Source: Amycolatopsis sp. GM8
Lineage (GTDB): Bacteria; Actinomycetota; Actinomycetes; Mycobacteriales; Pseudonocardiaceae
NCBI RefSeq assembly: GCF_021653975.1
Contig: NZ_JAJKFK010000001.1
Location: 372,001-436,000 of the forward strand
Reading direction: 5' to 3'
DNA length: 64,000 nucleotides
Shown here piece by piece: positions 8,575 through 50,835 of the stretch. The position numbers and the translations under genes were made by a program. The number at the start of each line of letters is the position of its first letter. Within the stretch, counting starts at the first letter, position 1. The notes beneath the pieces were generated by a model. It was given only the letters and a program-made list of their open reading frames with translations, was not told where the DNA came from and ran no database searches.

Positions 8575-8616
8575 CGTGTCCCACATTCAGGACGGCGAGT
8601 TCGACGTCGGAGCAGG
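8575..8616. repeat. family A 21-bp repeat, two degenerate units
   Basis: Units 8575-8595 and 8596-8616 carry the family A pattern (ACATTCAGGACGG followed by CGAGTTCGACG). The same sequence family recurs near 17.06, 19.52 and 44.5 kb. Here it lies upstream of the F420 reductase gene, and its first unit contains the stop codon of a LuxR-like gene fragment. Confidence 0.7.
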
Positions 8617-17057: not shown

Positions 17058-17090
17058 CGAGTCCGACATTCAGGACAACGAGTCTCCCGT
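17058..17090. repeat. family A 21-bp repeat, one full and one truncated unit
   Basis: A complete unit at 17058-17078 begins CGAGTCCGACATTCAGGA; a second copy starting CGAGTCTC breaks off after about 10 bp. It sits at the 3' end of paaR, as other copies sit at gene ends. See the family A entries at 19523 and 44494. Confidence 0.72.
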
Positions 17091-17594: not shown

Positions 17595-19552
17595 CCGAAC
17601 GGTTCAACCGCAAGCTGATCGCCCCGATGATCCTGGGGTCGATCCTGAACCCGGTCAACTCCTCGATGATCGCGGTCGCGCTGATCCCGATCGGCGCGGC
17701 GTTCGGCGCCCCGCCCGCGCAGACGGCGTGGCTCGTGTCCGGGCTGTACCTGGCCACCGCGATCGGGCAGCCCGTGGTGGGACGGCTGATCGACATCTTC
17801 GGCCCGCGCCAGCTGTTCCTCGCCGGCACCGCGCTGACCGGGATCGCTGGCGTGGTCGGCGTGCTCGCCCCGTCGCTCCCGGTGCTCGTGATCGCGCGCG
17901 TGATCCTCGGATTCGGGACGTGCGCCGGCTATCCGGCCGCGATGTACCTCATCCGCACCGAAGCGGACCGCACCGGGCAGAAGAGCCCGGCCGGGGTGCT
18001 GACCACGCTCGCCGTGGCCAGCCAGACGATCGTGGTCATCGGGCCCACGGTCGGCGGGCTGCTGATCGGGCTGGGCGGCTGGCGCACCATCTTCTCGGTC
18101 AACATCCCGCTGGCGGTGGCCGGTATCGTGCTCGGCCTGCTGCGACTGCCCAAGACCGGACGGCGCGGCGACGGCCACATCGACCTTCCCGGGATCGTGC
18201 TGTTCGCCGGGATGCTCACGTCGCTGCTGCTGTTCCTGATGGACCCCGTCGGCGAATGGTGGCTGGTCGTCGTGACCGTCGTGGTGGCCGCGGGCTTCGC
18301 GGTGTGGGAACGGCGTGCGGCGGAGCCGTTCCTCGATTTGCGGCTGCTGGGCGGGAATCCGGCGCTGCTGGCCACCTACGTCCGGATGCTGCTGACCGCC
18401 ATCGTCTCGTACGCCTTCTTGTACGGCTACACGCAATGGCTCGAGGAGTCGCACGGGTTGTCGGCGTCGCTGGCCGGGCTCGTCCTGCTGCCGCTGTCGC
18501 TGACCGCGATCCTCGTGTCGTCGGCGACGGGCCGCAATCCGGAGGTACGCGGGAAGCTTCTCGTCGGCGGCGCTTGCCAGGCGCTCGCGTGTGGCGGCCT
18601 GCTGATCCTGCATTCCGGCAGCGCCATCTGGCTGCTGATCGTGATCGGCGTGCTCGTCGGGATCCCGCAGGGGCTCAACAACCTCGCGAACCAGAACGCC
18701 TTGTACCACCAGGCGGATCCGGCGCGGATCGCCTCGTCGGCGGGGCTGTTGCGGACGTTCTTCTACCTCGGCGCGATCATCTCGTCCTCGGCCAACGGCG
18801 CGTTCCTGAGCGAGCGGGCCGACACCCCCGGCCTGCACTCGCTCGCCTGGTTCATGCTCGGCGCGTCGCTGCTCATGCTGGCACTGACCATTGTGGACCG
18901 TTCACTGCGCCGGATCGGCGCTTCCACCGACGGGGAAGAGAAACCGATGGCACTGACCACTTTGGACGACAACACCGCACTCGTGCTGGTCGATCTCCAG
19001 CACGGCACGGTGTCGGGCTCGCGCGGCACCCCGCATCCGGGCCAAGACGTGGTCTCGCGGGCCGTCGAGCTGGCCGACGCGTTCCGCAAGCACGGCGGGC
19101 CGGTCGTGCTGGTGCGGGTGACCGGCGAGCCGGACGGCGCGGACGCGACGCCCGGCCGCACCGAGGCCGGCAGGCGGGATGCGCCGCCCGAGGGCTGGGA
19201 CGTCATCGTCGACGAGTTGGCGCCGCAGGCGGGCGACATCGTGGTGACCAAACGGAACTGGGGCGCGTTCCACGGCACCGATCTCGACCTGCACCTGCGC
19301 CGTCGCGGGGTGACGCAGATCGTGCTGGCCGGGGTGGCGACGAGTATCGGTGTCGAGTCCACGGCCCGCGCCGCGCACGAGCACGGCTACCACGTGACGC
19401 TCGCGACCGACGCGATGACCGACATCGACGCCGACGCGCACCAGAACAGCATCCAGCGCATCTTCCCACTGCTGGGCGAGACCGGCACGACCGCCGAGAT
19501 CATCGAGCTCCTGGAGAAAACGCGCTCCGGAGTGTCGGACTCGACGTCCTGA
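17591..19552 (+). CDS. MFS drug-exporter domain fused to isochorismatase-family domain
   Basis: One uninterrupted 653-aa frame. Residues 1 to about 440 are a DHA2-type major facilitator with about 13-14 helices (LVSGLYLATAIGQPVVGRLI, motif C region GPTVGGLLIG). Residues about 453-645 are an isochorismatase/cysteine-hydrolase fold: ALVLVDLQHG (Asp), VVTKRNWGAFHGTDLD (Lys) and LAGVATSIGVESTAR, where the usual nucleophilic Cys is Gly, as in true isochorismatases. A fused transporter-hydrolase is the simplest reading, but an internal ATG at 18947 after GGGGAAGAG could start the hydrolase separately. The C-terminal codons (SGVSDSTS) and the stop come from a 21-bp repeat. Confidence 0.85.
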   Translation: MTERFNRKLIAPMILGSILNPVNSSMIAVALIPIGAAFGAPPAQTAWLVSGLYLATAIGQPVVGRLIDIFGPRQLFLAGTALTGIAGVVGVLAPSLPVLVIARVILGFGTCAGYPAAMYLIRTEADRTGQKSPAGVLTTLAVASQTIVVIGPTVGGLLIGLGGWRTIFSVNIPLAVAGIVLGLLRLPKTGRRGDGHIDLPGIVLFAGMLTSLLLFLMDPVGEWWLVVVTVVVAAGFAVWERRAAEPFLDLRLLGGNPALLATYVRMLLTAIVSYAFLYGYTQWLEESHGLSASLAGLVLLPLSLTAILVSSATGRNPEVRGKLLVGGACQALACGGLLILHSGSAIWLLIVIGVLVGIPQGLNNLANQNALYHQADPARIASSAGLLRTFFYLGAIISSSANGAFLSERADTPGLHSLAWFMLGASLLMLALTIVDRSLRRIGASTDGEEKPMALTTLDDNTALVLVDLQHGTVSGSRGTPHPGQDVVSRAVELADAFRKHGGPVVLVRVTGEPDGADATPGRTEAGRRDAPPEGWDVIVDELAPQAGDIVVTKRNWGAFHGTDLDLHLRRRGVTQIVLAGVATSIGVESTARAAHEHGYHVTLATDAMTDIDADAHQNSIQRIFPLLGETGTTAEIIELLEKTRSGVSDSTS

Positions 19553-19585
19553 GTGTCGGACTCGGCGTCGTGAGCGTCGGACTCG
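19523..19585. repeat. family A 21-bp tandem repeat, three units
   Basis: Three contiguous 21-bp units (19523-19543, 19544-19564, 19565-19585), each ending in GTCGGACTCG; on the other strand this is the CGAGTCCGAC core seen at 17058 and 44569. The array begins inside the MFS-isochorismatase gene and contains its stop codon. Confidence 0.85.
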
Positions 19586-43654: not shown

Positions 43655-44497
43655 GTGAGACCTGTTCGTATCGCGGCCGTTTGTGCGGCCGCAGTGCTGA
43701 CCGTTGTGGCACCGGGGGTGGCGGCTGGCGCCGGTAAGGCGCCGGCCGCTTTCGCGTTGACGGGCGCGTACAACGCGCCGGCGTTGGAAGGCACGGACTT
43801 CGACACGGTGGCGCGGGTGTACGCGTCGCCCACGACGCCAGGCACGACGAGCGTGCAGCAGCCGGACGACACCCTGTACGTGGGCCCGCTGTCCACCGGG
43901 ACGTCGTGGTTCCTGCACGTGAACGCCAAAGTGGGCGCGTTCGACGACGCGGTCCCGCCCGCGGGCGCCACGCTGGACCCGAACTTCGACGCGTCGGCGA
44001 ACCTGAGCGAGCGCGGCGCCACGAGTGCGAACGTGCGCTCGGACTACATGCTGGAATCACAGAACACGATCTTCGACCAGACGCCGCAGCACGCGTGGTT
44101 GTACCTGGACGACGCGACCAGTTCCGCGGACTGCGCCCGCGGCTCGCAGACCGCGACGGCGGACGCCGCCCGGCTGTGGGTGCGACAGCCTGACCGGACG
44201 CTGACGGAAGTCCCGGTGCCGCAAGGAGATCAGGCGTACGAGGTGGACCAGGTGCCGCTGCGGCTGCCCGCCTACACCATCGACCAGCAGTCCCAGCCGC
44301 AGTACGCGGACATCACGATCCGGCGGGTGGACAGCCCGGCGGACCTGGTCCAGACCGACCAGTGGCACACCGGGCGGGCCAGTGCCGCCGCAGGCTGGCG
44401 CGTCGATGTGGACAGCTACATCCTCACGTCCGGCACCCGCTCCGCCGAGCAGCACGCGGTGCTGATCCTCGGCGCGGCAACCTGTTCGCTGCACTGA
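43655..44497 (+). CDS. secreted protein of unknown function
   Basis: A 280-aa protein with a clear signal peptide (MRPVRIAAVCAAAVLTVVAP, likely cleavage after VAAGA). The mature part has no domain I recognise; it is rich in Thr, Asp and Pro, with two Cys (SADCARGSQ and GAATCSLH) that may form a disulfide. GTG start with GAGGGGAG upstream. Its stop codon lies at the first unit of the 44.5-kb repeat array. Likely extracellular; function unknown. Confidence 0.8.
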   Translation: MRPVRIAAVCAAAVLTVVAPGVAAGAGKAPAAFALTGAYNAPALEGTDFDTVARVYASPTTPGTTSVQQPDDTLYVGPLSTGTSWFLHVNAKVGAFDDAVPPAGATLDPNFDASANLSERGATSANVRSDYMLESQNTIFDQTPQHAWLYLDDATSSADCARGSQTATADAARLWVRQPDRTLTEVPVPQGDQAYEVDQVPLRLPAYTIDQQSQPQYADITIRRVDSPADLVQTDQWHTGRASAAAGWRVDVDSYILTSGTRSAEQHAVLILGAATCSLH

Positions 44498-44652
44498 CGC
44501 GAACGCCGAACTCGCTGTCCTGAACGTACGACTCGCGCTCCCGAGCGTCGGACTCGCCGACGCCCACGCGAGTCCGACACTCCAGACGGCGAGTCCGACA
44601 CTGGGGACGGCGAGTTCGACAGTCCGGACGGCGAGTCCGACACGCGGGGCGG
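44494..44652. repeat. family A 21-bp repeats: inverted array of 2-3 plus 4 units
   Basis: Left arm: units at 44515-44535 and 44536-44556, with a degenerate unit at 44494-44514, all oriented to end in ACTCG. A 12-bp spacer (44557-44568) follows. Right arm: four units in opposite orientation at 44569-44589, 44590-44610, 44611-44631 and 44632-44652, each beginning CGAGT(T/C)CGACA and mostly ending GACGG. The innermost units (44543-44556 with 44569-44582) pair at 13 of 14 positions. It fills the gap between the convergent secreted-protein and globin genes. Confidence 0.9.
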
Positions 44653-44666
44653 GCGCGCGCGGGGGG

Positions 44667-45116
44667 TCAGGGGCGCAGGCCGTCCCAGGACCAGTGCGGC
44701 ATCGGCAGCCCACCGGGCACCGTCCCCGTGACCGGGTATGACAGGACCTGCCCGACGGCCCATTCCATGTACGCGCGCAGCGCGGCACGGAACTCCGGGT
44801 CGCCGGGCAGGTCCGCGTCATCGGCCGCGTGCACGAAGCAGTCGACGAACCGGCGGCCGAGGTCGCTCATGTCGCCGTTGCCCGCGTGCATCACCAGCAC
44901 TCCGCTGTGATCGCCGCACGACTCGGAGTAACGCGCCGGCCCGCCCATCACCTCCGCCCAGTAGGCGGCGAGCCGTTCGACGTGCTGCGGGTGCTGGTCC
45001 GGATGCGAGAACGGATGGTTCAGCTCCGGATCGGCGAGGCAGCGCGCATGATGCGCCCGCGCCAGGGCGAGGAACGCGGGCTCTCCCCCGGCGAACTCGA
45101 ACAACGACGGACGCAT
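44667..45116 (-). CDS. truncated haemoglobin
   Basis: A 149-aa group II-like globin: ALARAHHARCLADPELNHPF, HPDQHPQHVERLAAYWAEVM and MEWAVGQVLSYP. The His in HPQHVERL is a candidate proximal ligand; assignment of the haem residues is tentative. Such globins bind O2 or NO and may aid NO detoxification. ATG 6 nt after a TAGATT box (45128-45123), so probably leaderless. The 3' end adjoins the family A repeat array. Confidence 0.82.
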   Translation of the reverse strand: MRPSLFEFAGGEPAFLALARAHHARCLADPELNHPFSHPDQHPQHVERLAAYWAEVMGGPARYSESCGDHSGVLVMHAGNGDMSDLGRRFVDCFVHAADDADLPGDPEFRAALRAYMEWAVGQVLSYPVTGTVPGGLPMPHWSWDGLRP

Positions 45117-50653: not shown

Positions 50654-50691
50654 CGCGCCGATCCTACGACGCCGTGCCGGCCCGCCACGTC

Positions 50692-50835
50692 GCCGTGTTT
50701 GCCCCCCGCGCGGGCGTGTTGGCCCGCCACGTCGGTGAGTTGGCTCCCTGCGCGGGTGTGCCGACCGTCGCGCCGCGCAGCGGGCAAACTCACCGACGCG
50801 CGGAGCAAACACGGTGACGCAGCGGGCAAACACGG
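50692..50835. repeat. family B 21-bp repeats: inverted array of 3 plus 3 units
   Basis: Left arm units: 50692-50712, 50713-50733 and 50734-50754 (core GTGTTTGCC or GTGAGTTGGC). A spacer of 18 bp follows. Right arm units in inverse orientation: 50773-50793, 50794-50814 and 50815-50835 (cores GGGCAAACTCAC, GAGCAAACACGG, GGGCAAACACGG). The innermost pair, offset by one base, matches at 18 of 21 positions. It fills the gap between two divergent genes. Confidence 0.9.

Follow-up and report, generated by a model that had tools for sequence, protein, structure and literature searches.

Between two convergent genes of Amycolatopsis sp. GM8 lies an array of seven 21-bp units, at positions 44494-44652 of the window, by which we mean the whole 64,000-nucleotide stretch of DNA that was analysed. 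The plus-strand gene (43694-44497), whose start is the one given by a home-made gene caller, has no Pfam match at an E value of 0.001, and the gene convergent with it (44667-45116, minus strand) encodes a bacterial-like globin (PF01152). The units belong to a family that we call A. Three are on the minus strand (44494-44514, 44515-44535 and 44536-44556, with PWM scores of 20.7, 25.4 and 25.2) and, beyond a 12-nt spacer (44557-44568), four are on the plus strand (44569-44589, 44590-44610, 44611-44631 and 44632-44652, with scores of 24.7, 27.1, 23.2 and 19.6). A gap of 12 bp is the commonest between opposed arms in this genome (12 of 21 junctions). The first unit is weak and overlaps the stop codon of the plus-strand gene, and the last ends 14 nt short of the globin gene's stop codon. 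TRF reported rows at 44510-44557 and 44568-44643, and Rfam gave 0 matches up to an E value of 1 in positions 44300-44900.

An earlier reading made from the letters of this DNA (the sequence-only reading) had described units in opposed orientations around a 12-bp spacer, which agrees with the three minus and four plus units located here. It had also placed related units at 8.58, 17.06 and 19.52 kb; at these places we found two weaker family A units on the plus strand (8575-8616), a lone unit on the plus strand (17058-17078) and an array of three units in a single orientation on the minus strand (19523-19585). Its count of 13 pairable positions out of 14 for the innermost opposed units is close to the predicted fold, which has 11 perfect pairs, one mismatch and 3 further pairs. 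The window also holds an inverted array of a second family, B, with four forward and three reverse 21-bp units (50673-50834; TRF and PWM). The neighbours of this family B array were called divergent by the home-made caller, so that either the caller may have erred here or this array departs from the placement described below.

The globin gene is at least 82% identical in five relatives. In three of them (G014, G004 and G006) it is directly convergent with ilvA (90-94% identical), with a short gap and no array between the two genes, and in the remaining two a different neighbour lies beside it. In Amycolatopsis sp. GM8 an extra gene and the array lie between the globin gene and ilvA.

Unit families, spacing and helical phase

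In a search of the 22 contigs of the window's own genome (G000) for a two-core pattern, with unit spacings of 16 to 25 bp allowed, 22 places were found, every one with a spacing of 21 bp, and the reversed pattern, used as a control, was found 0 times. Units are thus neither confined to this locus nor spaced at random with respect to 21 bp, the two outcomes that the sequence-only reading had named as contradicting it. On C1, the 1.51-Mb contig of this genome, genes were called by codon usage with the home-made caller rather than with a standard one (1283 genes, 82% coding). TRF gave 59 intergenic rows with period 21 on this contig; among the other periods with at least 8 rows, the top intergenic count was 9 (period 42). 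When the cores alone were matched with at most 1 mismatch, pairs lay 21 (48 pairs), 42 (27), 63 (12) and 84 bp (5) apart, and no other distance from 1 to 129 bp reached 3 pairs.

Two PWMs, one for family A (CGAGTCCGACGTTCGGGACGG, 159 sites) and one for family B (TGTGTTTGCCGGCCGCGTCGG, 100 sites), were used to scan C1. The scan gave 47 clusters of at least 2 units, with 2 to 19 units per cluster, and 41 arrays were left after 6 clusters in coding regions were dropped. The two families have a common frame, with a core of about 10 bp (CGAGTCCGAC in A, YGWGTTKGCC in B) and about 11 further bases that are more variable. The genome contains a dispersed set of 21-bp arrays built from these two related families. 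At one locus on another contig (L013, G000:C4:150196), A units run directly into B-like units with the 21-bp frame initially kept, as if A and B were interchangeable.

The period is held more strictly than the sequence. Steps between units on the same strand are exactly 21 bp in 187 of 196 cases, and the others are 20 (2), 22 (1), 23 (1) or at least 35 bp (5). Neighbouring units agree at 15.7 (A) or 15.0 (B) of 21 positions and so differ at about 5.3 or 6.0, compared to agreement at 14.65 (A) or 13.7 (B) for units from different arrays, so that neighbours are more alike by about 1 position. This similarity is distributed unevenly along the unit. Between arrays, positions 2-5 and 10 of A and positions 2, 4-6, 8 and 9 of B agree in 0.91-1.0 of pairs, and most other positions agree in 0.38-0.8; outside the core, conservation is also seen at positions 13 and 17 of A and position 17 of B (0.93). 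The exact steps together with the divergence of neighbours indicate that the arrays are for the most part not newly made tandem copies, and that spacing has been held while sequence drifted.

A minisatellite, lengthened and shortened by slippage or unequal exchange and tolerated where it follows a stop codon, would also have a fixed period and a variable number of units, such as the 2 to 19 seen on C1, and the mobile copies described below differ in size by whole units. The slightly greater likeness of neighbours also speaks for it: family A unit pairs with at least 19 matches make up 0.098 of neighbours and 0.034 of pairs from other arrays, and near-identical neighbouring units occur at L119 and L160. 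However, the excess likeness is small, divergence is very uneven along the unit, small changes of spacing (20, 22 and 23 bp) account for just 4 of 196 steps, and arrays lie near stop codons far more often than random intergenic placement allows. The slippage minisatellite is therefore disfavoured, and we regard it as quite improbable.

A period of 21 bp is about two helical turns, and the sequence-only reading had offered a protein-binding array with two turns per unit as one of its options. The gaps between opposed arms bear on this option, which is the one we favour. In G000, with gaps of 2-32 bp allowed, the 21 junctions of family A had gaps of 12 (12 junctions), 13 (2), 11 (1), 20 (1), 22 (1), 23 (3) and 32 bp (1). 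Fifteen of the 21 therefore fall at 11-13 bp and five at 20-23 bp, and the lone gap of 32 bp contains a degenerate core that gives 11. Family B gaps were read in two relatives. In G009 they were 4 bp in 10 junctions and 11-15 bp in 32 (n = 42, from the 50 junctions listed of 68, after 8 nested or degenerate rows were dropped), and in G012 they were 4-5 bp in 5, 11-14 bp in 11 and 22 bp in 1 (17 of 22 junctions, 5 nested or degenerate ones having been dropped). The three junctions listed, of 78, for the genome G126 have gaps of 25 and 27 bp and are omitted from the phase analysis; their opposed arms enclose similar hairpin-like centres.

The opposed-arm gap classes are about 10 bp apart. For a common core length and periods from 6 to 16 bp, phase coherence peaked at 10.5-11 bp for A, 10 bp for B and 10-10.5 bp for both, a result that is based on two gap classes per family, of which the 11-15 bp class is broad. 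Junctions of the reverse type in family A had a gap of 18 bp in three of four matches and of 27 bp in the fourth; the value of 18 bp is constant, but the distance between centres that it gives does not amount to whole turns. Many gap sequences, notably in B, look like copies of each other, and shared descent could therefore have fixed the gaps. The tandem steps are locked to the helical repeat, as expected of a phased array. We read the spacing as helical phasing of asymmetric sites, which common descent of the junctions could mimic.

Gene ends, strand and folding

Copies at gene 3' ends, which the sequence-only reading had suggested looking for, proved to be the rule on C1. Of the 41 arrays, 32 have an edge no more than 25 nt from a facing stop codon, compared to 1.95 on average and at most 3 when arrays of the same length were put randomly into intergenic gaps in 20 repeats. 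Proximity to start codons was seen for 3 of 41 arrays, with a control mean of 2.65. Twenty-three arrays lie in convergent, 15 in tandem and 3 in divergent gaps; the 789 gaps of at least 30 nt on this contig comprise 111 convergent, 435 tandem and 243 divergent ones. The stop codons adjoining arrays in G000 are TGA (34), TAG (9) and TAA (3). Among relatives, 35 loci were given, of which 32 had an array by a conservative rule, and with a conservative edge 16 of these 32 lie within 30 nt of a coding-like stop codon, a weaker association than on C1.

The strand of the units differs between families. The stop-proximal unit of family A is in the sense orientation in 15 cases and antisense in 17, without strand preference; that of family B is sense in 12 and antisense in 2, and so is not strand-neutral. 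Arrays behind stop codons could be single-stranded RNA motifs in 3' untranslated regions, for example sites for Rho or an RNA-binding protein, and both their location and the sense orientation of 12 of 14 stop-proximal B units are consistent with this. Against it, A units are strand-neutral and helical phase is meaningless for single-stranded RNA. A motif at the RNA level is thus disfavoured for A, though not for B, and as an explanation of the arrays we consider it very improbable.

The sequence-only reading had listed a hairpin or cruciform and a bidirectional terminator among its options; a structure of this kind would serve as a bidirectional, intrinsic-type terminator or protect 3' ends. 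Folding was compared with shuffles on both strands for the 39 arrays with at least 3 units. The 20 inverted arrays fold far better than shuffles (mean z of -5.7 and -6.7 on the two strands). By contrast, mean z was 0.15 and 0.06 for the 19 arrays in a single orientation, among which two exceptions on one strand were found (450074, z -3.4; 904789, z -2.7). When the arms of real arrays were compared with chimeras of arms from different arrays, means were -55.4 versus -58.5, -53.4 versus -55.7 and -50.6 versus -52.4 for three junction types. Since chimeras fold equally well or slightly better, there is no arm-specific covariation. One counter-example was found by eye, pair 378, in which the stem is kept in G000 and the relative G004 with two double changes.

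Terminators of the usual kind are scarce beside arrays. In convergent gaps of 60-500 nt, a U-tract terminator was found in 1 of 21 gaps with an array and in 8 of 28 without (p 0.035), a weak contrast that weakens further to p 0.055 once tandem gaps are added. It counts both for the hairpin and for the reading that we prefer below. The arrays lack the GC-rich stem followed by a U-tract that defines an intrinsic terminator: they resemble a Rho-independent terminator in location and, when inverted, in having a stem, and differ in the near absence of the U-tract and in that about half of them are stemless. In addition, a hairpin has no need of an exact 21-bp period. The mean z near 0 of single-orientation arrays and the swapped-arm control rule out the hairpin as a constant feature, so that the hairpin, cruciform or terminator did not survive as a general account, and we judge an RNA hairpin or cruciform improbable as the explanation of the element.

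Arrays in relatives and a mobile form

The distribution of arrays among relatives is patchy. Of 19 genomes of the genus, the window's own included, 2 contain the A pattern and 10 the B pattern, which the other nine lack. A stricter B pattern was found in 19 of 297 genomes of the family, with the top counts in g1 and g17. A scan of named genomes, which may not have covered the genome of Amycolatopsis sp. GM8 itself, found 16 stretches. Eight are in Amycolatopsis alkalitolerans (G004), and the other 8 came from eight other records in scattered taxa, one of which held two matches. Five B-pattern loci (L179, L180, L184, L185 and L186) were examined separately; two of them (L179, L186) hold no array by the conservative rule, and two (L184, L185) look by eye like coding repeats.

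Arrays are present in G000, G004, G008, G009 and G012, and none were found in G006 and G014. Consistent with this, intergenic TRF rows had period 21 in 9 of 14 cases in 200 kb of G004 and 8 of 18 in 100 kb of G012, compared to 0 of 42 in 400 kb of G006, and TRF gave no intergenic row in 100 kb of G014. Nine G000 array gaps have conserved neighbours in G006, and an array was found there in none of the nine; four of these G006 gaps are short (22, 22, 33 and 67 nt). By this absence, and by the nine of 19 genus genomes without the B pattern, the arrays are dispensable, a point against the reading that we prefer. In one convergent gap (pair 424), G006 has no 21-bp arrays, and the gap is filled by another short repeat (around GGTGGTTCCGCGC; L216-L235).

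Between G000 and G004, a periodic array is present in both members of 3 orthologous gaps, in G000 only in 3, in G004 only in 2 and in neither in 80 (p 0.0017). In two of the three gene ends with arrays in both genomes, the unit family is swapped: in pair 335, which has close-matching flanks, an A array in G000 corresponds to a B array in G004 at the same gene end, and in pair 339 an A array in G000 corresponds to a 22-bp type in G004. Arrays have been gained or lost between species, and at two orthologous gene ends the array stays while its family differs. The third unit type, of 22 bp (GTCCGGCTTCCGCCGCGGGTGA), lies at gene ends in G004 (C45, about 141000-141089, L243; also pair 339). In genus g17, some steps between units are 22 bp by eye (L181, G126). 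At pair 387, a 20-nt stretch comprising the stop codon and the start of the first unit (G000:C1:502207) is repeated 116 nt downstream (502323), possibly a scar of array gain. Several contigs of G008 (C10, C15 and C46) start within 20 nt of a 21-bp array; arrays may therefore break assemblies and be under-counted.

Two of the relatives carry arrays in a mobile form. One element end sequence, allowing up to 3 mismatches, has 37 matches in G004 and 15 in G008 (loci L162, L152, L256, L257 and L264-L285 are among these high-copy miniature transposons). TA was found at the left end of 19 and the right end of 21 of the 24 copies that were read, at both ends of 16 and at one end of 8, and 3 of the 24 have no credible right end. 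Most copies are 226 bp long, and others are 205, 247 and 268 bp, in steps of one 21-bp unit; their interior consists almost wholly of B units in opposed arms. The G004 and G008 copies thus have the terminal inverted repeats and target duplication of a MITE, and their CTAG/TA preference resembles that of IS630-type transposons. One copy in a G004 gap lies beside a terminator-like hairpin; in our reading of the sequence, the G000 counterpart has the hairpin and a T-tract and no array, which also weighs against hairpin or terminator as a general account of the arrays.

These copies give weight to the main rival of the reading that we prefer, in which the units are binding repeats for a transposase or recombinase inside a miniature transposon, phased by the enzyme, and the many naked arrays descend from such copies by decay or internal spread, bring no gain to the host and lie at 3' ends because insertion is tolerated there. 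The number of end matches, the TA flanks, the whole-unit size steps, the B-unit interior, the copy that is present in G004 and absent from its G000 counterpart, and the differences in arrays between species all fit this rival. On the other hand, the same end sequence has 0 matches in G000 at up to 3 mismatches, inspection by eye of 36 nt on either side of the 41 G000 arrays showed no inverted ends, where other ends are possible, and these arrays adjoin TGA, TAG and TAA alike. Since G000 has no match to these ends, its arrays would be an independent or older form, or have ends that were not recognised. In addition, at two gene ends both orthologues carry an array, built from different unit families. 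We consider the transposase reading unlikely, and the strongest of the alternatives.

Known repeats and a possible role at gene ends

Among described repeats, BrickBuilt of Porphyromonas gingivalis is a MITE that carries a tandem repeat of 23 nt; it has IS5-like ends, and the reference strain holds 19 copies (PMC4596501). As presented there, it shares with the arrays intergenic direct repeats of about two helical turns with variable sites mostly in the second half, and its inverted ends, long predicted stem-loops and lack of an Rfam match are further points of likeness (PMC4596501). In contrast to BrickBuilt, the G000 arrays have no such ends, lie at stop codons, swap families and have restricted junction gaps (PMC4596501). 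REP and BIME elements, with their RAYT transposases, are similarly dispersed and multi-copy and lie mostly between convergent or co-oriented genes, and in the two species for which this is shown the distance between conv-REPs and the 3' end of a gene is mostly below 20 bp (PMC3733652). The arrays are likewise dispersed at gene 3' ends, their distance from a stop codon being 25 nt or less in 32 of 41. REP units in that account are palindromes tagged with GTAG or CGTC, whereas the array unit is non-palindromic, tandem and phased (PMC3733652). A palindromic unit of 20-40 bp is not found here, given the mean z of about 0.1 in the 19 single-orientation arrays. Neither consensus contains GTAG; the string CGTC can be read in B and on the opposite strand of A, but without a palindrome that it could tag. 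The Y1 (RAYT) transposase (PF01797) was found in 0 of 7 genomes of the genus and in one of the 8 searched, G126, which belongs to another genus. Its absence from the 7 genus genomes rules out a RAYT/REP system.

Two other kinds of intergenic repeat share some features with the arrays. The TAACTGA heptamers of Beggiatoaceae, many short sets of intergenic direct repeats proposed as binding sites with function unknown, have 7-nt units that lie mostly within several nucleotides upstream of start codons and are read as post-transcriptional sites (PMC4679880). Prokaryotic satellites are also tandem repeats in intergenic DNA, and Amycolatopsis mediterranei is credited with 23 of them in a text that does not contain the term "21 bp" and in which we noticed no gene-end rule (PMC6749651). 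Our searches, which covered open-licence PMC papers and left subscription literature outside their scope, gave no prior description of the element, in line with the sequence-only reading, which knew of none. Because BrickBuilt and REP elements are known (PMC4596501, PMC3733652), the kind of element is known, and within these searches a phased, family-swapping array at gene ends is a new variant of it.

Tandem protein sites are also found in other systems. Sal-box arrays behind rRNA genes are tandem sites bound by TTF-I that act as a roadblock at the gene end, and plasmid iterons are tandem protein sites spaced about two turns. To both, the 21-bp arrays bear a resemblance only.

The reading that we tentatively prefer is that each array is a row of helically phased, double-strand protein sites, dispersed and fast-changing, and perhaps a transcription boundary. 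Since the core and the helical phase are kept, we read the units as double-stranded sites occupied side by side. Their position, the exact period, the conservation of the core with a looser spacer and the strand neutrality of A argue for a protein that recognises double-stranded DNA and is aligned along one face of the helix. A role at gene ends is suggested by the position at stop codons, by the excess in convergent gaps and by the replacement of one family by another at the same end. A predicted sequence-specific protein would occupy the units side by side, one every two turns, and the bound row behind stop codons may act as a roadblock or boundary that keeps RNA polymerase from the opposing gene, the latter being the step of which we are least sure. 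The pairing of opposed arms into hairpins would be a by-product of their common motif.

A more specific proposal, which we regard as speculative and rather doubtful, is that the arrays form a new class of gene-end boundary elements, made of phased sites for a dedicated, predicted DNA-binding protein that would shield convergent genes from each other. The "dialect" of the sites (A, B or the 22-bp type) would be replaced while positions persist, and a miniature transposon would now and then capture and disseminate them.

U-tract terminators are few in high-GC actinobacteria, and to our knowledge it is poorly known how their convergent genes are kept apart. If the boundary proposal is true, the marking of gene ends with phased double-strand sites would offer an answer to this question that can be tested, as well as a ready-made insulating part. 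If the arrays are instead selfish, they would still be an unusual repeat, in which spacing is stricter than sequence and one family replaces another at a given gene end from species to species.
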